A program made the translations under genes and the position numbers. From NCBI GenBank assembly GCA_019054805.1, contig JAHQIY010000012.1, forward strand, positions 806,001 through 870,000: DNA of 64,000 nt, read 5' to 3'. How positions within the stretch are numbered: the stretch's first letter is position 1; every line of letters starts with the position of its first letter. The notes under the pieces were generated by a model that ran no database searches, was not told the DNA's origin, and saw nothing but the letters and a program-made list of their open reading frames with translations. The DNA is from Brachionus manjavacas (taxonomy: Eukaryota > Rotifera > Eurotatoria > Ploima > Brachionidae). Positions 3,682 through 63,008 of this stretch are shown here, one piece after another.

Positions 3682-4023
3682 TAAAGTCACATTATTATAA
3701 AAAAAATTTCGTCGTCCCATGATTTACTTCTAAAATAAACCAAATAATCTTTTATCAAATTTTGTTTATACAAAAAAAAATATTTACTTCTAAGGAAATA
3801 AATGAATTTCCATGATTGAAATTTTGTAAAAAATTAAATTCCGATTTCAATTAATTATGAAAAAATCTCTGAATAAAAAAAAACTCTAAATCTTGTTTAA
3901 ACCTGTTCAAAATAATAAGATTAAGATTCGATAATCGATTTTTGTAATTCAACCATTGGCACAGCGTACCTGCTGGTCAGTAAAAGCGATAGTCTTGAAC
4001 TTGGACTTGTCCTGCTGATTAAA

Positions 4024-5702
4024 ATGATTTATTTCACCTTTACCAGGAAGTCCGCAGGAGTCGACCAAGTAGCAACGCACGCGCTTAAAATGTGTTCCAA
4101 GGAGCTTGCTGGACCACTCTCGCTTATTTACTCACAGTCTCTTAGCTCATCTACACTTCCCAACGAATGGAAGATTGCAAATGTATCACCAATTTACAAA
4201 ATTGGAAGTAGATCCGCAGTTGGCAACTATCGCCCAGTCTCTCTTACCTCAGTCCCATGCAAGGTCTTGGAATCACTCGTTAAGGACTACATCGTCAAAC
4301 ACCAGGACAAACACAATTTGATTACCAAGAAACAACATGGCTTTGTGGCACATAAGGCATGTTTGACCAACCTGCTTGAAACAGTTGACTACCTGACAGA
4401 CTGCGCCAGTCGTAAAGAGCCTGTAGATATAATATACCTGGACTTCGAGAAGGCGTTCGACAAAGTATCACACGAACTGCTCCTGGTCAAGCTAGCAGCG
4501 TACGGCATTCCCGAAAGCATTGTTAGCTGGATTCGTAATTTCCTGAGCGGCCGAAGACAGAGAGTAGTCATAGGCGGAGTAGAATCGGAATGGGTACCAG
4601 TTACGAGCGGCGTACCTCAGGGTTCGGTCATTGGCCCGCTTCTCTTCATCATTTACATCAATGATATGCCAGACGTGTGTGGATCTGTTTGTAAGCTGTA
4701 TGCTGATGACAGCAAGCTAATAAGCTGGGTACTACGTGTGGACAACTCTAGAAGGCTGCAGTCTGACCTCAACCGTCTTGCAGAATGGTCGGACACTTGG
4801 CGAATGAAATTCCACAAAAAGAAGTGTGTGGTCATGCATGTTGGGGACAAGAACGATTGCTACGAGTACATGCTAGGCGATCATACACTTGAAAAGACCA
4901 CAAAAGAGCGAGACCTCGGAATCATTATCACAAATGACCTTAAGTGGACTGAGCAGTCCAAGAGAGCGGCGTCTAGGGCAACGATGATAGCGTGCCGAAT
5001 CAAGCTAACCTTCTCGTATTTCTCATTGGAACTGGTGAACTTGCTCTACAAGTCGTTTGTACGGCCTCACTTAGAGTTTGCAGTCGGTGCCTGGAATCCT
5101 TTTCGGCGGGGTCACATTAAACTGCTTGAACAGGTGCAAAGGAGATTCTCAAAGCTAGTCCCTGAACTCAAATCGAAACCCTATGTTGAAAGAAGAGAAG
5201 CTCTCGGTTGGATCACTCTAGAAGAACGGCGTAGTCGAGGTGACCTCATCAAGCTCCATAAGATTCAGCAAGGCTACGACCACGTATGCTTTATCAACGG
5301 CGATCAAAGGCTGGCGTCTGATGGCCACGACGGTCCAGCAGGGAACACAAATCGAAACCCTATGTTGAAAGAAGAGAAGCTCTCGGTTGGATCACTCTAG
5401 AAGAACGGCGTAGTCGAGGTGACCTCATCAAGCTCCATAAGATTCAGCAAGGCTACGACCACGTATGCTTTATCAACGGCGATCAAAGGCTGGCGTCTGA
5501 TGGCCACGACGGTCCAGCAGGGAACACCAGAACTTGTCATCGTGCAATTGAGCGCCAGTTGGTTCGCAACTGCGAGGCACGCACCAACTTCTTCACGAAC
5601 AGGACCGCAGGTGACTGGAATGCCCTAGATGCAGCGACCAGATGCGTAACTAACACCAACACATTTAAAAATAGAATTGACAAACTACTTTATTTTTTAT
5701 AA
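4024..5702 (+). pseudogene. CR1-like reverse transcriptase, frameshifted by a tandem duplication
   Basis: RT core with the expected motifs in order: GVDQV, NYRPVSLTS, QHGF, YLDFEKAFDKVSH, GVPQGSVIGPLLF and YADD at 4699-4710, then the thumb blocks RDLGIIITNDLKW and PHLEFAVGAWNP. The palm looks catalytically complete. The first ATG (4024) and seven codons come from flanking DNA, not the LINE. A 179-bp tandem duplication (5169-5527) shifts the frame and stops the reading at 5400. After the second copy the correct C-terminus resumes as FFTNRTAGDWNALDA and ends at TAA 5700-5702. The missing N-terminus and the frameshift make it non-autonomous. Confidence 0.85.
5169..5527 (+). repeat. 179-bp perfect tandem duplication
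   Basis: Two head-to-tail copies, 5169-5347 and 5348-5526, start at CAAATCGAAACCC and end at GCAGGGAACA, with no difference that I can see. Because 179 is not a multiple of three, the duplication breaks the RT frame. The lack of divergence implies a recent event. Confidence 0.9.
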
Positions 5703-21845: not shown

Positions 21846-22033
21846 CAATCAGATATATCCTATTGGCCGTATTGATACCCGAGAGAAAATTGCACAATAT
21901 TGATTAGAAAAAAGCCAATCATAAAAAATTTTTGCTCATTGGCCAAGACATCCACAGCCATCTAGCTATTTAATCGATACCAAGAAAAAAAAATTACTTT
22001 CAAAATTCAAACTTTACTAAGATAAACCCAGAA

Positions 22034-23034
22034 ATGACATCGTTCTCAATTGACAACATTTTGTCGCCTAGCTTTTCGTCCAAGCGAAAGCTTAGCGAAA
22101 TAGAGAACAGCCCTGTGTACTTGTCGCCCTACCAGAACCCACTGTTTGTCTACCTGCAAATGATGAAGTCAACGCCGAGTCCCAACTCCTCGGGCTACTC
22201 TAGCTTCACTGACACGTCCATCGAAGAGGAGAACCGCAAGCCCAAGCGCGAAAAAAAGGAATGGGCCTGTCCCACTTGCCAAAAGGTGTTCGACCGGCCG
22301 TCTCTCCTGCAGCGCCACATCAGAGTGCACACGGGCGAGAAGCCGCACGTGTGCGACACATGCGGCAAGGCCTTCTCCACCTCCTCTTCTCTGAACACCC
22401 ATGCGAGGATCCATAGCGGCGAAAAGCCGCACGAGTGCAACGTGTGCGGCAAGAGGTTCACCGCCAGCTCCAATTTGTACTATCACAAGCTGACGCACAC
22501 GTCCAATAAGCCTCACAAGTGCACCCAATGCACCAAGTCGTTCTCGACCCCCGGCGACCTCAGGGCCCATCTGCACACTCACAATGGCACGTGGCCTTTC
22601 AAATGCGACATCTGCCACAAAGGATTCACCAAGCAGACCAACCTCAGAAATCATATGATCACTCATACAGGTAATTTGAAAAGAGAGCTTTTTTTTGGTG
22701 CGGAATTGGAAATTATTTTTGATGTTAAAAAAGGCGCCAAGCCGTTCACTTGTGTGAAGTGTGACAAATCTTTTTCGATGGCTTGTAATTTGAAATCTCA
22801 TTTGAAGACACATCATGCTGCCGATGACGCTGGTGAGTAAATATTTGGAGATAAGATTTTTGTTTTTTTTGTTTTTTATTTTGTTTGTGAGAGGATTAAG
22901 ATAAGTTGGACAAACAGTAAGGTGTTGATTTATGTGTAAGAAATTAATTTTTTTTCTCTCTCTCTTTTAAAGGCGATGCGGACGAGAGCAAAGAGAACAA
23001 TCAAAGTTTTTGTGTCGATGATGATGATAATTAA
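22034..23034 (+). CDS. Six-finger C2H2 zinc-finger transcription factor
   Basis: Three exons, 22034-22670, 22734-22832 and 22973-23034, giving 265 residues. Residues 4-10 (FSIDNIL) fit the eh1 Groucho-binding repressor motif. Residues 11-76 are Ser-rich and end in a basic stretch (KPKREKKE). Six C2H2 fingers follow, starting at Cys 79, 107, 135, 163, 191 and 219, with TGEKP-type linkers. The tail is acidic (CVDDDDN). Splicing exon 1 to 2 gives HTG-AKPF, restoring a standard linker. It should bind DNA in the nucleus and probably repress transcription. eh1 plus six fingers recalls the FEZF family, but the fingers align with an offset, so orthology is not claimed. Exon 1 is far GC-richer than the surroundings. 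Confidence 0.92.
22671..22733 (+). other. 63-nt in-frame intron
   Basis: GTAATTTG donor and AAAAAAG acceptor. Length is a multiple of three with no stop, so retention would add 21 residues (starting NLKRELFFG) between fingers 5 and 6. It is called an intron because removal gives a normal finger linker and its composition drops to the local AT level. Confidence 0.8.
22833..22972 (+). other. 140-nt intron
   Basis: GTGAGTAA donor, then a CT-rich tract and TTTTAAAG acceptor. Splicing replaces an early stop (22838-22840) with the tail GDADESKENNQSF. Confidence 0.85.
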
Positions 23035-41339: not shown

Positions 41340-44095
41340 GAAGACCATGGAAATAATGATAATAATGAAGAAGACAATGTCTTTCAGGATGATACTTATG
41401 GGCTCACATAGAAAACAATTAAATTCAGATACTTATTTAAAAAAACAAAAATCAATAAAGAATCCTAATTTTTCAAAACAATCTTCATCTTCCAACAGGT
41501 TAGTAATTACACACTGGAACTGCTTCCAATTACCCAGTAGAATCCCTCTCTAAGAAAAGTTTTTAGCTCAGAATTGCCCTGACATTGTTCTCTTAAATGA
41601 AATAAAAATAAATCAAAATGATTTAAATTTTTACTTAAATTTTAAAAATTATAATTCAATAGTTAAAGCTCGAATTTGTAATGGTCGAGGAGTATCCGTT
41701 TTAATAAACAAGCAAATTCATTTGATCACTTTAATGCGGAGCTTCTATGCATCAAGATAAGCTTAAAAAACACAGAAATTTTTGTATTTAGTCTTTACAA
41801 TCCACCTAACATAGTACTTCCCTTTGAACTTTTTCTAGATATTTCTAAAAGGTGTGGAAAATTTATTCTAGGGGGAGATCTAAATGCGAAAGCTAAAAGC
41901 TTAGGCTGTTTAGGTGAAAATGAAAGTGGTCAAATTCTAGAGAAAATACTTAGCAAACTAAACCTCCTGTAATTAATGATACGACGCCACCATTTAATAG
42001 ATTTAAATCTGAACATTTTGAAATTCTTGATTTTTTTCTGATACCATTCTGATTAGCAGATAAAATATTGGACTTCAAAGTCTTGGAGGATCATGATATG
42101 TTAAGTGACCATTTTCCAATCCAGGCAAACATATCAATTGAGCATTATATAACAGTTAAGTCACCAAGTTCTAATTTTGATTTCAAAAAAGCAAATTGGG
42201 GATTTTTCCAAGAATTACTTAGATCCTCAAGCCTTACAATTAATTCTCTTACAAATATTGTTAAACTAAATGAACTAATTTCATTGAAAATCATGAATGC
42301 GGATCAAAAAAGTATTCCTTTTCAATCTCAGAAATTTTTTAAATCGAGTCTACCGAAGAACATTGTATTACTAATTAAGGAACGTAGGAAAGTTCGAAGA
42401 CTTTTTCAGAAAACAAGATGTCCTTCTCTAAAAATGACATTTAATAAGCTAACATCTGAGTTACGTTCAAACTTAAAGGATTTTCGGAATCAAAACTGGC
42501 AAGAGTTTATATATAAAAATGGGAAAAAACCCATTATCGAGTAGACCATTTGGAGAAAAATAAATAAATTTAGATCAAAGAAATGTTCGAGGCAAACTCC
42601 CATGTTAATTAAAGATGGAAAATGGTTCAATACAGATAAAGATAAAGGAGAAATCTTCTGAAACATCTTAAAAACAACTTTTAGTCCTCATTTAGATTTA
42701 GACATATCTGAGAGTGATACTGAAATAGCAGATACAATCTCAGGTTTCCAGAAAAAAAATAATGTACCAAATAATCTGATTGAACCAATTACTGTTTCAG
42801 AAATTACATCCTCTTTAAAAAAGTTAAAAGAAGTGTCAGGTTCAGGTATAGATGGCATGCACAACTCAATGTTAAAAAATCTCCCTTATGAGTCTTTATA
42901 TTTTGACATTTCTAAAGCTTTTGATAGAGTTTGGCACGATGCACTAATTTGTAAGCTAATTAAAACTAATCTTCCTCCTTATCTTATTTACTGGATCAGA
43001 TCATTTCTCGATTCCATATCTTTAATAGTAAAAGTAAACGGACATTTGAGTGACCAATACTTAATTAAAGCAGGGGTTCCACAAGGACCAGTAATTAGTC
43101 CGCTTCTTTTCAGCATTTTCATTAATGACATACTTAAAAGAAATAAGACTAATAGCCAATACTCTTTTCTTTTTGCAGATGACTTAGCTGCCTTTTTGAT
43201 TTTTAAAAAGAAAGGAAATCTCGAGAGTTTAATTAATAAGTACTTAAAAGAAATTAAAAAATGGCTTTTCAAATGGAAAATGAAAATGTTTGTTGAAAAG
43301 TCATGCTACACGATCTTTGAAAAAAACTCTAGAAAAAAAACTAATCTTGACCTAAAATTATAAGAGAACAGTTTAAATGTAAAAGAAAAAGTTAAGTTCT
43401 TAGGAATTACATTAGAATCAAAACTTACATTTAGTTTAATGGTGGATGAGATAAAAGAGCGCTGTAATTCAAGACTAAATGTTATTAAATATCTATCGAA
43501 TAAAAAATGGGGCCTTAAACCCAAAACATTAGGGAATCTATACAAATCCTTAATAGGATCAATTCTCGATTATTCTTTTCCTTGTTTAAATTCACTCACA
43601 GAAGCAAACATTAAATAAATACAAGTGATTCAAAATTCAGCAGTTAGATCCATCTTGAAACTAAAATATGATATTCCCTCCAACATAATGCATCATGAGG
43701 CATATAATAAACTTAAACTACTAACATTCTCAAATCGGCTTTTTGAGTTGAGTGAGAGATATGTTGGGACAGGCCTGAGTCATTCTATTCCATTAATTTT
43801 CAGACTGGTGCAGGAATTCAAAGAAGGTTTCGAATATTGAATACCCAACTCCATTGTGTAATTGCTACCTCACTATTTCCTCCTTTTTTTCTGAAACCTG
43901 AACTATGTAAACATTTGCCATATGTAACAATACATCAATGTCTTCTCAACTTTCATTTTTTTAGCTTACTTACTATATTTTGATTTTTTGTTTTATCTCA
44001 TTTTATTGACTTTAATTTTATTTTTAATTTTGATTTTGATTTTTTAATTAATTCTGAAGGAGCCCTAGATCGGTCCAGAAAACAAATAAATAATG
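41340..44095 (+). mobile_element. Jockey-like LINE, copy A (degenerate, internally deleted)
   Basis: Remains of an endonuclease-RT protein. Endonuclease landmarks: VITHWNC (41505), LLNEIK, GGDLNAKAKSLGCLGEN (41874-41924) and SDHFPIQ (42104). Then the linker (FRNQNWQEFIYKNGKKP), VSGSGIDGMHNSMLKNLP, and a jump into YFDISKAFDRVWH (42899), so the RT region with NYRPIS is deleted. The palm continues GVPQGPVISPLLFS and FADD (43174-43185), then SNKKWGLKPKTLGNLYKSLI and NSAVRSILKLKYD. The 3' UTR ends TTCTGAAGGAGCCCTAGATC and an AAAT-type tail at 44095. Several stops and frameshifts. Same family as 48673-51600 and 61630-63000. Confidence 0.85.
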
Positions 44096-51600: not shown

Positions 51601-52880
51601 ATAACTTTGACTTAGACTCAAATTTTAAGTTTTTTGACTGTGATAAACAAGTCTGGTTATGGCGACATGTGGCGATCACCACACCATCTTTTGAGGTTTT
51701 ATGGCGCCGCCATGGGAGAAAATTGTTGAAAATTCAAACTAAAAAAAAATTGTTCTAATCTCCCCTTTTTTCAGACAAAATTAACAAACAAAAACCTTCA
51801 TTTGATATTTTGAAAATGTAAATGTACATGTACATGTGTACTTAATAAAATTATTTATGCAATATTTGATTAAAACTTATGTTATGTTTTATGTTCTAGC
51901 TGCCGAATTTTTTTGATCAATAATGAAATACGTTTTTTTTAAATGCCCCTTTTTCTTGTCTTAAAAATGATCTGTTTTATTAATATTTTCGACGGATAAA
52001 AAATTTATTTCATTTCATGAAATTGACGTCTTCAAAATTGTTGCTATTTTTGTTAGGCAAAAGAATAGATGACTTAATTTTTTTTAAATGTTCAATTTGA
52101 TTTTGTTTAATTAGTTAAATTTTTCCAATGAATTATCTGGATGTTGATCTGAGTCAAATTGATGGCGGCACCAAATCGATCATTTAAGATTTAAAATAAA
52201 TTTATTTAATAATTTTTTGAAAGAAAAAAATGAATAAATAGTGAATTAAATAAATAAAAAAATTGATTCTAAAAATTCATAAATTTAAATTTTGTTCGCT
52301 AAAACTTGTGTAATAAAATAATGAAGCATCTCTATTGTGTTCATCTTAGTTAAAATAATCAATGTGTCTAAATTACTTTTAACATTTTAACCTTGTCAAA
52401 ACAAATAATAACAAATTATTATCTTGCTGCTTCTTCCTCTGTATATTCTTCAATTTTAAAAGATGCATTTCAACATGTCTTTGGAATTTTTTAATTTTTT
52501 CTTAATTTTAAAATTACATGTTTATTTTAAAAAATTTAAAAAAAAGACGAATATTCGAATTAAAGTAAGTCTACTGAAGTATGGCAATTTTTTATTTAAT
52601 TAAGCAATAAAGTACTAGTAAATTTAGTCGATTAAAAAACTTCAAGCCTTTCTAGATATTTTTTATTTATTGTAATGTTCTAGTAGCTTCTTAACTAAAA
52701 GATCCTACTGTGTAGAAAAAAAATGATTTCCAAAGTAATCAGAATCACGATTCTCTAAATATTTATCTGCAGAATTTTTTGTCACTTATCTTATCATTCA
52801 CGAAATTGTCGCTTGTTTTGTTTGACTTGAAAATTTTTTATAACTAAATGCTTTAGTCATAAGATTTTCTCTAGTTAAAA
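51601..52880. other. AT-rich spacer upstream of the RING-SH3-SH2 gene
   Basis: No supported coding sequence. Presumably contains the promoter of the next gene; no clear TATA box was assigned. A TACATGTACATG-type run lies at 51821-51838. Confidence 0.45.
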
Positions 52881-54134
52881 ATGTCTTTTATAGACGAGAA
52901 TTTGCTCACATGCTTCTACTGCAATATGCACCTCGAGAGTCCAGTCTTGCTGCCCTGCAATGAAACCATTTGTTCAAAGCACGTCAAAGCATTCAGCCGG
53001 CAAAAACCTTTTGAATGCCCCAAGTGCCACGAGACCCATGTGTTGCCCGAGAGCGGTTTTCCTTCTGATAAAAAAACCCAACAAATTCTCATCTTTCAGC
53101 AGTCTTTGCAAAAGGCAAATTTTGCCAAGCTAAACAATTTGTATCAAAAATACGCCCAGCTAAAACAAAACCCATTCTATTTCATTCAGTCACATTTTGA
53201 CAAAATGAGGGCACAGATAATTGAGTACCGCGACAAAAACAAGAAAATAATTGATGATTTATTTGACGCCTATTTGCAAGAGATGCGCCAACTGGAGCTC
53301 ACTGACAAGGACAAAATAAGCCAAGTTTTGAATCCGTACCCTAGTGATGATGACTCGAATTCATGCGATTATTGGCGCTCTAAAATTGACAAACTGAGCC
53401 AACAATGGGAAAAAGTAGACGACCAAAAATCAAAATCTGAACTGGTCAGTTTGGAGAAAAAGTTGGAGAAAAAAATTTCAAATCTTGAACAAAATTCAAT
53501 GCCAAAAAATTTGGCTATTTTTACAGGCAAGCTTTTGGAGGGCGTAGAGCTCGGCAGGTTTGAGAGGAAAAAATTTTCCCGCGACGGGCCAATTCACTTG
53601 GAGTCAGCGGCAACTGCGCAGCTTCTATGCGTGGCCATGAGCGACCATGAGGCAAAGAATAGTGAAGAATTGAGTCTGAGAAAAGGAGATAATTTAGTGG
53701 TGAAAGAGCGCGGTCAAAATTTATGGCTGGTGAGCAAGGACGATAGGTCAGGCTATGTGAGCGCCAAAATGCTGGCTGAGACATGGCAGGAAGAGTGGTT
53801 TGTGGGAAAAATGGAGCGAAACGAAGCAGAGTCGGCTCTCAAAAGCGAGCCAAACAAACCTGGCTCTTTTCTCATCAGATTTAGTGCGTCGAGCAAAGAA
53901 AACCAGATATATTCGTTGTCAGTGAGGAATATAGATGCAAATATAAAGCATTACATCATTTGCCGTGAGTTGGACAAAAATGGTTGCTGGCAGTACTGGC
54001 TCTTGGGAGCGAAATGTAAATTTAACAACATTAGAGATTTAGTAGCTTGCCATTCGCACAGAAGTAATGGACTTTGTACAGAGTTAACTAGTCCGTGTAT
54101 CAAGAATAAGGGTGCGTTTATGACAACTTTTTAA
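52881..54134 (+). CDS. RING-like / coiled-coil / SH3 / SH2 adaptor protein
   Basis: 417 residues in one exon. Residues 11-49 form a RING-like site (C11, C14, C26, C31, H34, C46, C49; E28 at the usual His position). About 75-205 are charged and heptad-like (coiled coil). About 246-300 are SH3-like, with the peptide-binding aromatics replaced. Residues 306-406 are a Src-type SH2: WFVGK start, FLIRFS with the phosphotyrosine Arg 333, R313 and H357 kept, LVACHSHRSNGLC at the end. No kinase domain; it stops 11 residues after the SH2. Inference: a cytoplasmic ubiquitin-ligase-like adaptor recruiting phosphotyrosine proteins, analogous in logic to Cbl but with a different layout. GC-richer than the flanks; intact frame. 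Confidence 0.9.
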   Translation: MSFIDENLLTCFYCNMHLESPVLLPCNETICSKHVKAFSRQKPFECPKCHETHVLPESGFPSDKKTQQILIFQQSLQKANFAKLNNLYQKYAQLKQNPFYFIQSHFDKMRAQIIEYRDKNKKIIDDLFDAYLQEMRQLELTDKDKISQVLNPYPSDDDSNSCDYWRSKIDKLSQQWEKVDDQKSKSELVSLEKKLEKKISNLEQNSMPKNLAIFTGKLLEGVELGRFERKKFSRDGPIHLESAATAQLLCVAMSDHEAKNSEELSLRKGDNLVVKERGQNLWLVSKDDRSGYVSAKMLAETWQEEWFVGKMERNEAESALKSEPNKPGSFLIRFSASSKENQIYSLSVRNIDANIKHYIICRELDKNGCWQYWLLGAKCKFNNIRDLVACHSHRSNGLCTELTSPCIKNKGAFMTTF

Positions 54135-54269: not shown

Positions 54270-54300
54270 TGTAGATCTCTATTGAGCGAATGCTCCTTCA
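54270..54300 (-). mobile_element. LINE 3' end fragment
   Basis: The minus strand reads CTGAAGGAGCATTCGCTC: a GAGC-ATTC-GCTC hairpin like that at 58973-58989 and 61665-61692. Confidence 0.5.
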
Positions 54301-54587
54301 GATGAGAAAAAAAAAACATGCGACAGAATAATTTGAATTTTTTTTATTTTTAAACCAAGCTAAATTTTAAAAAAATTTCCAAACAAGGAAATTGGAAAAA
54401 ATTAAAAAACTATAATACAGTAAAGTACGGTTATAACAAAGTCGCTGGGGGAATCAAAAAACGGTTCGTTATAACCGAACTTCGTTACATCCAAAAAAGA
54501 CAAAAAAATTTTTTTTTTTAAGTTTTTATATAATTAAAACGAATTAAAAAAGAAATAATAATGATAAATATGAAAAAAAATTATATA

Positions 54588-54986
54588 TTATTTTTTATAA
54601 TAATCGGAGATGGTTTTTTGTTTAACCATTAGACCCAAGATTTCATTCTCAATTGAACCCAAGCTATCAATTGATGACTCAAAATTATGTTTTGATTTTG
54701 AAAGATGCTTCCTTATTTGAATAATCATTTTTAAAGCTTGTTGATTTGGCATTTCCTCATCGTGTTCATCTTCATCATTTTCTTTCTGGTTCTCATCATC
54801 GCTTAGGTCGCAAACAGTTTGACTTGAACTTTCATCTTGGTTGTTAATCAAATTAATTATTTCTTCGTCGGTTTTTTCTTGATATACAGCTAATTGATTA
54901 TCAATTTCAACATCCTCTTGAAAAGAAGCGTCCGTTGGAATAAATCGAAATTGTTGAAAATGCTTCCATAATTTTTCTATTTCCAC
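54588..54986 (-). pseudogene. Tigger transposase C-terminal part
   Basis: 132 codons, acidic middle (CDLSDDENQKENDEDEHDEE) and a helical end (QALKMIIQIRKHLSKSKHNF then GLMVKQKTISDYYKK). Such an acidic linker and C-terminal helix follow the DDE core in Tigger proteins. It lies inside the same TIRs as the DNA-binding part. A host-domesticated protein is less likely because the two halves are in broken frames. Confidence 0.65.
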
Positions 54987-55057
54987 TTTTTCTTCATCTT
55001 CGTATTTTTTTGACTCGAAATTGGTATCAATAGATTCTTTATTTTTGAAACCTGCCT

Positions 55058-55568
55058 TTAAAAAACAGTTTTATCCGACGTTAATGTTGAAAGATTATTT
55101 TTCCATGTTGTAACTTCCGTTTTGTCGACTGAGCCTGGTTCTCCGTGTAATGTTTGAAGCTTGATTACATATCGAGTTTTGAACCTGTCTAGCCAGCCAA
55201 GATTCGGTTTGAATTCAGGATAATGAAATCTAATAGCGTATTCTGTTGCTTTTGATGTTATTATTGGTCCATCTATCTGTATACCATTTCCAACTTTTTC
55301 TCTGATCCATTCTGCGAGTGCTTTTTCGAGATCATCGTATTTTCCAGATTTGATTTTTTGACATTCTTCTGCTGCTGCGTTCTCTTCGAATAATTTTAGA
55401 AACTCCTCTCTACGTTTGTAAATACCGCTCATTGTACCTACTGGAATTTTAAATTCCTCGCAGACTTCGGTCTGAGTTTTTTTTTTGCTATCGATAAACT
55501 TTATGTATTTTACTTTTCATGCAACGTAAAAACCTTACGTTTAGTTGGTTTAGTTTTTTCTAACATTT
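55058..55568 (-). pseudogene. Tigger transposase N-terminal DNA-binding part
   Basis: Starts MLEKTKPTKRKVFTLHEK (ATG at about 55566), a psq-type HTH, broken by a stop and a frameshift in an A run near 55475. It continues in an open frame from 55432: MSGIYKRREEFLKLFEE, LEKALAEWIREKVGNGIQID, then ATEYAIRFHYPEFKPNLGWL and DRFKTRYVIK. The FKPNLGWLDRFK.R block is the CENP-B-type second DNA-binding helix domain of Tigger transposases. The frame stops just as the DDE domain should begin. Confidence 0.8.
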
Positions 55569-61625: not shown

Positions 61626-63008
61626 TTTTTTATTTATTATTTATTTGTTTATTTATTTGTATTCTGTACCGAGCTAAAGCTCCTTCAGAATAAATTAAAA
61701 ATAAAATAAAAATTAAAGTTAATAAAATTAGATTAAAAAAAAGAATCAAAATAGAGTAAATAAGCTAAAAAAATTAAAGTTGAAAAGACATAAATTGGAA
61801 AAGATTGTTACATGTGGCACATGTTTAAATAGTTCAAGTTTCAGGAAAAAAAGAAGAAACAGTAAGGTAGCAATTACACAATGGAGTTGGGTATTCAATA
61901 TATCTTGATTCGAAACCTTCTTTGTATTCCTCCACCAGTCTTTCAACCAATGGAATAGAATGACTCAGTCCTGTCCCAACATATTTCTCACTCAACTCAA
62001 AAAGACGATTCGAGACTGTTAGTAATTTTAGTTTATTAAAAGCTTCATGTTGCACGATGTTGGAGGGAGTATCATATTTTAACTTAAGGATAGATCTTAC
62101 TGCTGTATTCTGAATTGCTTGTAGTTTTTTGATATTATTTTCTGAAAATGAATTCAAGCAAGGAAAAGAATAGTCTAAAATCGATCCGACTAAAGATTTA
62201 TATAAATTTCCTAGTGTGTTTTGATTGAAACCCCATTTTTTGTTTGACAATATCTTAATAATATTTAGCCTTTTGTTGCAGCGTTCTTTAATTTCGTCTA
62301 CTAGTATATTAAAGTTTAACTTAGAATCAAATTTAATACCAAGAAAATTGATTTCTTTTTGGCTCACTATTCTGTTTCCATAGATTTTTAAGTTTAGATT
62401 ATCACCCTCTTTTTTGTACCTAGAAAAGACTACTGAACACGACTTTTCAACTGATATCTTCATTTTCCATTTAATAAGCCATTGTTCTAGTTCGTTGGTG
62501 TATTTATTAATCTTATTTTCTAGGTTCCCTTTCTTGTTATAAATGAAGAATGTAACTAGATCATCTGCGAAAAGCAGAGAGTATTCATAATTTGTTTTGT
62601 TTCTTTTTGGGATGTCATTAATATATATACTAAATAAAAGAGGACTAATTACCAAGCCTTGAGGAACACCTGCAGTTATTTTATATTCTTCGCTCAGATG
62701 ATCATTCACATTTACCTTAAATGTCCTACTATCTAAAAAGGATCTAATCCAGTTAGTCAAGTAATGAGGTGGATTCATTTTAATCAATTTAAAAAGTAGA
62801 CCTTCATGCCAAACCCTATCAAAGGCTTTAGAAATATCAAAAACAGGCCACAAACTCTTTTTTTCTATTAAATGATTCCACAATTTTTTGAATTAAAAAG
62901 AAAAGATTATCTGATGTTCGCCGGTGTTTCCTAAATCCAGATTGCTCCTGGATAAGGAGTGAATTTTGTTCCAAATAATTGTATAATCTTGAAAATTTGT
63001 ATTTTTAT
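61626..63008 (-). mobile_element. Jockey-like LINE, copy C (5'-truncated, youngest-looking)
   Basis: On the minus strand it starts within RT at FSRLYNYLEQNSLLIQEQSG (about 63000), has one frameshift in an A run near 62870, and then a 345-codon open frame to 61834: FDISKAFDRVWH, GVPQGLVISPLLFSIYINDI, LLFADDLVTFF (catalytic FADD), INFLGIKFDSKLNFNILVDE, NTAVRSILKLKYD and the C-terminus. The 3' UTR ends TTCTGAAGGAGCTTTAGCTC (GAGC-TTTA-GCTC hairpin) and a long AAAT-type tail at 61690-61626. It shares the 3' end with copy A. Lacks ORF1 and endonuclease. Confidence 0.88.

Follow-up and report, generated by a model that had tools for sequence, protein, structure and literature searches.

A candidate RING–SH3–SH2 protein without a kinase domain in the rotifer Brachionus manjavacas, a predicted adaptor and possible ligase of phosphotyrosine signalling

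In the Cbl family, a 4H-EF-SH2 (TKB) part comes first and the RING after, and in SOCS-box SH2 proteins SH2-guided ubiquitination proceeds via the SOCS box and Cullin-5. Phosphotyrosine-directed ubiquitination is known for Cbl and Hakai according to a review that includes ubiquitin ligases in the SH2 proteins and covers the HYB domain of Hakai (PMC3507883). In other cases the partners are separate chains: SLAP and SLAP2, with an SH3–SH2 pair and no kinase, have been linked to c-Cbl-driven receptor loss (excerpts of PMC4539169), and C. elegans TRIM-21 acts with SRC-1 and the SH2 adaptor NCK-1 on CED-1 (excerpts of PMC9388098). Single-chain combinations have been engineered, among them a man-made RING–SH2(Drk) that lowers EGFR signalling and raises endosomal trafficking in Drosophila (PMC3038869), a RING–SH2(Grb2) described in a review (PMC11310040), and an SH2–U-box that promotes BCR-ABL degradation, relative to which an SH2–RING chimera was reported to be weaker, with data not shown there (PMC4916441). 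In the extracts of these sources at hand, the engineered ligases are built from Cbl or CHIP and no SH3 is described. Among the papers listed from the open-licence literature searched, none named a natural RING–SH3–SH2 protein in its title or abstract opening.

We describe here such a predicted protein, encoded by an ORF at 52881..54134 on the + strand of a 64,000-nucleotide stretch of rotifer DNA (the window). Its 417 aa are arranged as a RING-like domain, a helical region, an SH3 and an SH2, and by this domain content it is not a TRIM, a Cbl, a SOCS protein or a Src kinase. Like the engineered RING–SH2 and SH2–U-box ligases, it would combine an E3-type domain and an SH2 in one chain, with activated tyrosine-kinase targets as a prediction, but it is of natural origin, its RING is a variant one and it includes a long helical part. 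It shares with Cbl the presence of a RING and an SH2-type domain in one protein but has the RING first, an SH2 of the Src type and no Cbl_N in Pfam searches, which also found no SOCS box in it, unlike in the SOCS proteins. It resembles SLAP and SLAP2 in its kinase-less SH3–SH2 pair; SLAP, however, borrows Cbl in trans and TRIM-21 pairs in trans with an SH2 adaptor, whereas this protein has its RING-like domain and its own SH2 in the same chain. From TRIMs it differs in having no B-box and an SH3–SH2 pair as its C-terminal part, and from Src kinases, where the kinase follows the SH2, in that it stops instead. Our best reading is of a phosphotyrosine-guided RING adaptor, possibly a ligase, that would down-regulate tyrosine-kinase signalling, its activity being a prediction.

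The frame opens with an ATG at 52881 in an A-rich context, runs for 417 codons with zero in-frame stops and closes with a TAA ending at 54134, on whose final base, by direct reading, an AATAAA starts. Each of the other five frames contains 12–33 stops over the same interval, and an independent-base model puts the probability of so long an open run at 1.4e-16 with the composition of the window and 5e-13 with that of the ORF itself. A codon-usage score trained on 12 own-genome genes (10 RING-family members, a Src-type and an Abl-type frame, all relatives of one or other half of the protein) was above zero for frame 0 in all 20 of the 30-codon segments wholly within the ORF and negative in 7/7 segments outside it or straddling its ends; frame 0 was the top of six frames in 19 of the 20 internal segments, the exception being residues 321–350. 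GC3 was 0.49 overall and 0.44–0.62 across five segments, so that in this respect the halves resemble parts of a single gene. RING-like, SH3 and SH2 domains had originally been predicted to occur in one protein without a kinase, and this holds, given the single 417-codon frame, the support from Pfam and a family profile and the finding of no kinase in the ORF by Pfam. That the RING and SH3–SH2 parts instead represent two transcripts, or that their joint is removed as an intron, we regard as very improbable: there is a 3′ splice-like stretch (TTTTTACAG) close to the joint, with its end at 53526, and the ORF contains several GT-type 5′ motifs, but the long stop-free frame, a positive frame-0 score across the junction (residues 181–250) and the one-piece frames of 373 to 616 aa in 15/23 RING-family members read all argue against it. 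Upstream of the ORF, TTTTCTCTAG at 52865–52874, six bases before the ATG, resembles a 3′ splice site, and a 5′-UTR intron or trans-splicing is possible there.

The C-terminal half was readily recognised. The SH2 (residues 306–391; 53796..54053, + strand) scored 57.1 bits with PF00017 (cut-off 21; E 1.9e-15), and the PDB SH2-chain match extends to about residues 407–410. The SH3 (residues 250–300; 53628..53780, + strand) was identified by SH3_2 (PF07653; 25.2 bits, cut-off 21.8, E 1.3e-5) and by alignment with HCK and the Src- and Abl-type frames, with SH3_1 (22.3 bits, cut-off 22.9) and SH3_9 (22.1 bits, cut-off 30) both under cut-off. HCK and Src were the top PDB matches (E 4.2e-20), with a single alignment spanning residues 242–410. 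In its own genome, the best match of the pair was a complete Src-type kinase frame on contig C15 (39–40% identity), followed by a partial Src-type copy, with 41% identity over the SH2 part, and, on contig C23, an Abl-type frame (32–34%). The HCK and Src matches and the identity to the own Src-type frame bear out the Src-type character attributed to the pair at the outset. The partial second Src-type copy (L011; C15:945542-948862) lies ~8.6 kb from the complete frame, and its 183-codon frame comprises an N-terminus and an SH2, with SH3 and kinase not seen by eye.

Relative to the own Src- and Abl-type frames, the protein retains R313, R333 and H357, which we take to be the alpha-A2, beta-B5 and beta-D4 positions and the main SH2 phosphotyrosine contacts; its beta-D6 position is Ile, and Arg in both of those frames. 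Judged by these residues, the phosphotyrosine side looks mostly intact. At the six positions of the SH3 that are presumably PxxP-groove sites (S254, H256, E263, W282, S294 and M297), four residues are lost, one is conservatively changed (Asp to Glu) and the Trp is kept, although its retention is uncertain, the HCK alignment being shifted by one residue at the groove Trp and placing Leu there. Ser and His take the place of the two ALYDY tyrosines, Ser that of the groove proline and Met that of the last tyrosine. The aromatic groove residues of a PxxP-binding SH3 are largely gone from residues 250–300, and the domain would be a structural partner for the SH2 and not a reader of PxxP motifs. SLAP is further characterised by a Cbl-binding tail; here the ORF ends 26 residues past the Pfam SH2 match, with a tail of just 10 aa after residue 407, and its own sequence has neither a Met-Gly myristoylation start nor a tyrosine after residue 391.

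The RING-like zinc domain (residues 11–53; 52911..53039, + strand) is more divergent, and its assignment draws on a family profile, a match to the TRIM2 RING and a table of ligand positions. In the Pfam search suggested by the original prediction, SH3_2 and SH2 exceeded their cut-offs but the RING did not: the single protein scored 10.7 bits with zf-C3HC4_3 (cut-off 27) and 10.9 with zf-C3HC4_4 (cut-off 30), and it was absent among the 99 genome matches of PF13445 (E up to 0.1; a lower bound). With residues 1–200 as query, however, at least 38 places in the own genome are matched at E up to 1. One of these is the gene itself; the strongest of the rest has an E of 2.4e-11, and identity to C15:1499431 is 34% over residues 5–142. 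A profile of 11 other family members scored the protein at 62.4 bits (E 1.5e-18), first among 917 window ORFs (next ORF, 9.6 bits) and above the best of 2000 shuffles of the RING segment (13.4 bits); since these members were themselves recruited by similarity to the protein, the score attests to kinship and is no independent discovery. When a 12-row family profile that includes the protein was compared to the PDB, the TRIM2 RING was the best match (E 3.9e-12), with further matches to the RINGs of TRIM56, RBBP6, TRIM3 and TRIM32. The ‘TRIM-like RING’ first proposed can therefore be kept as far as the family profile, nearest to TRIM2 and TRIM56, is concerned, but the protein is no TRIM, as it has no B-box: between residues 61 and 245, H105, C162 and H239 are the only Cys or His. 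Among 23 scanned family members, three reach a RING Pfam cut-off (L026, barely, L037 and L042), and all three carry the canonical His at the fourth ligand. A tree of 19 RING-helix rows grouped the protein with L015, L017, L019, L024, L025, L040 and L042, but only as a hint, given weak support (78/85) and long branches, and single-sequence structural models (mean pLDDT 35.8 for the full protein and 49.4 for residues 1–80) were too poor to interpret.

One family member (L018; C12:791609-791938) lies ~67 kb upstream of the gene on the same contig. Elsewhere, C1:1418332-1496197 contains a cluster of related genes with 10 matches to the residues 1–200 query, several of which encode a half-RING (LPCG...C-x2-C-x2-H, without the first Cys pair) plus the helical part, and in two of which (L045 and L049) the unit is doubled within one frame; a MATH domain was recognised there in L039 and L045.

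In canonical RINGs the fourth zinc ligand is His. Cys or His occupies seven canonical ligand positions in the protein, but the fourth is E28, and this position is mostly Glu across the RING-helix family. The zinc-ligand candidates within residues 11–53 are C11, C14, C26, C31, H34, C46, C49 and H53, and in the 12-row alignment C11, C14, C26, C31, C46 and C49 are invariant and H53 is present in at least 90% of rows. Of the 16 pattern-complete family members that lack the canonical His, 14 have, by script, a His at the fourth residue past the last Cys, and reading the rows of the remaining two, L018 and L025, revealed a His at four and three residues past the last Cys respectively. With a downstream His in 16/16 such members, which are related by descent and do not imply 16 separate events, eight ligands may be kept, H53 replacing the fourth ligand in the second zinc site. 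Among members with the canonical His, L037 and L042 also have the downstream one and L026 does not. The pattern-complete PF13445 RINGs of the genome have the canonical His in 24/24 and the downstream His in 1/24 (L089, also a weak match to the family query), a comparison in which only the downstream column is informative, as PF13445 selects for the canonical His, and in which the 24 are partly non-independent (rows L065–L067 and L076–L077 are identical). If real, the apparent relocation of the His would be a case in which to test how much a RING can diverge without ceasing to work.

At the linchpin position, directly after the last Cys, the protein has H50 and not Arg or Lys. An R/K linchpin occurs in 21/24 pattern-complete PF13445 RINGs versus 3/16 family RINGs without the canonical His, and H50, together with this rarity in the family, is the main evidence from sequence against direct ligase activity. 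The residue preceding C14, presumably an E2-contact position, is Tyr. Because of the Glu at the fourth zinc ligand and the His at the linchpin, the ligase side of the protein is questionable, and it is quite conceivable, though we would put it short of an even chance, that the protein is a pseudo-ligase, that is, an SH2 adaptor whose RING-helix half only dimerises or docks and which competes with Grb2-type adaptors or kinases with no ubiquitination. E28, H50 and the missing R/K linchpin in 13/16 family RINGs without the canonical His all speak for it; on the other hand, zinc-ligand candidates are kept in the 12-row alignment, so that the domain seems to be kept folded, and some RINGs are active without an Arg linchpin. 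A putative new phosphotyrosine-directed ubiquitin ligase, as first envisaged, stays plausible.

Between the RING-like domain and the SH3–SH2 pair lies a helical region (residues 63–205; 53067..53495, + strand), delimited by alignment with paralogues, a heptad test and a low-confidence model, and partly common to the RING family in that alignment. The heptad periodicity of residues 96–130 was equalled by 0/500 shuffles and that of residues 89–123 by 9/500, but by at least 41/500 in the other 24 of 26 overlapping segments. The coiled coil originally proposed, which in TRIMs is antiparallel, is partly supported, its heptad signal lying mainly at residues 96–130. The linker that follows (residues 206–249; 53496..53627, + strand) was defined by eye from the family alignment and has a positive frame-0 score. 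Also by eye, a short LG-type motif common to several family members occurs just before the part in which their C-termini differ.

Domain content beyond this point varies. The RING-helix part is followed by WD40 repeats in 3/23 scanned members (L024, L025 and L036) and by a MATH domain in 2/23 (L039 and L045), L036, L039 and L045 having no first Cys pair. These relatives have a similar N-terminal half and a one-piece frame but a different C-terminal domain, and by eye the SH3–SH2 pair is located in about the same place as their WD40 and MATH ends, which suggests C-terminal domain swapping. From this alignment, the SH3–SH2 fusion appears to be one among several exchanges behind a shared N-terminal half, in line with the fusion of a RING-helix protein and a Src-like SH3–SH2 that had been foreseen and that the own-genome relatives found for each half corroborate. 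That the protein is a phosphotyrosine-guided RING protein, with an N-terminal RING-helix half joined to a Src-type SH3–SH2 pair, is a proposal on which we are evenly poised. The fuller proposal, of a natural single-chain phosphotyrosine-directed ligase that is independent of Cbl and SOCS proteins and is built on a RING-helix chassis with a relocated His ligand and interchangeable WD40, MATH or SH3–SH2 readers, is tentative and would be the more doubtful of the two. Given its WD40- and MATH-ended siblings, the RING-helix half would be a chassis that can be reused with new substrate readers. Six further members (L013, L014, L016, L021, L022 and L028) are one-piece frames of ~500–520 aa whose C-terminal half has no convincing Pfam match; our guess is a diverged beta-propeller.

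For the proposed phosphotyrosine-guided RING protein we envisage that the SH2 would dock on phosphotyrosine of activated receptors or cytosolic tyrosine kinases and that the helical part would bring chains together. The RING half, either by itself or paired with another RING, could then recruit a ubiquitin-conjugating enzyme, and the bound target would be ubiquitinated and removed. If its RING is active, the protein would be a negative regulator of the Cbl or SLAP type, with parts fused that act in trans in other animals (SLAP with Cbl, NCK-1 with TRIM-21). A natural fusion of this kind, if true, would mean that evolution independently reached the laboratory RING–SH2 design.

The genome assembly (114 Mb, 61 contigs) has animal-type content, including Src- and Abl-type frames, identified as such by eye and containing kinase domains, as well as Cbl_N and SOCS boxes. 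The protein as a whole was found in it just once, and the bacterial and archaeal genome contigs and viral contigs searched yielded no relative. We considered whether the protein might replace a lost Cbl, but this was rejected, as the genome retains one Cbl_N place (C2:7406244, E 2e-35), followed 2.5 kb further by a PF13445 RING, as well as eight SOCS-box places; the protein would then supplement these systems, not replace them. The idea that it is one of many RING–SH2 fusions was likewise rejected: only 1/31 SH2 places has a RING-family place (of 38) within 20 kb, and for two other SH2 places a PF13445 RING (of 99) lies on the opposite strand, 7.6 kb away in one case and 16.2 kb in the other, all three place counts being lower bounds.

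The surroundings of the gene are rich in mobile elements. Among window ORFs of at least 130 aa, reverse-transcriptase pieces occur on both sides of it (3925-5400, 42662-43363 and 61834-62892), and a piece with a Tc5-type transposase DNA-binding domain in Pfam lies at 55058-55516 on the − strand. The four downstream ORFs of at least 130 aa comprise two mobile-element domains and two with no Pfam match at 0.001, and no kinase was seen close by, the nearest kinase match listed on the contig being ~361 kb away (142 of 352 candidates scored). Such a setting could suggest a decaying, functionless chimera left behind by mobile-element activity, an explanation also favoured by the single copy of the whole protein and by a 26-base direct pair with an A-rich end that flanks the gene (52698-52723 and 54289-54314, 73% alike), which is probably due to chance in a search covering direct repeats of at least 14 bases. 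We nevertheless consider it unlikely, because the frame is open and its Cys/His ligands and SH2 contacts are kept despite deep divergence, and its GC3 of 0.49 compares with 0.22–0.43 in the 23 family members. With halves ~30–41% identical to their nearest own-genome relatives and with frame and key residues kept, we infer prolonged selection on a functional protein.

Downstream of the gene, an inverted stretch at 54423-54482, which we assume to be similar to the end of a pogo/Tigger-type element, is accompanied by frames at 54588-55516 on the − strand. The only other clear non-mobile frame recognised among window ORFs of at least 130 aa is a C2H2 zinc-finger frame at 21974-22840 with six zf-C2H2 stretches in Pfam, alongside which there are a few unnamed frames.
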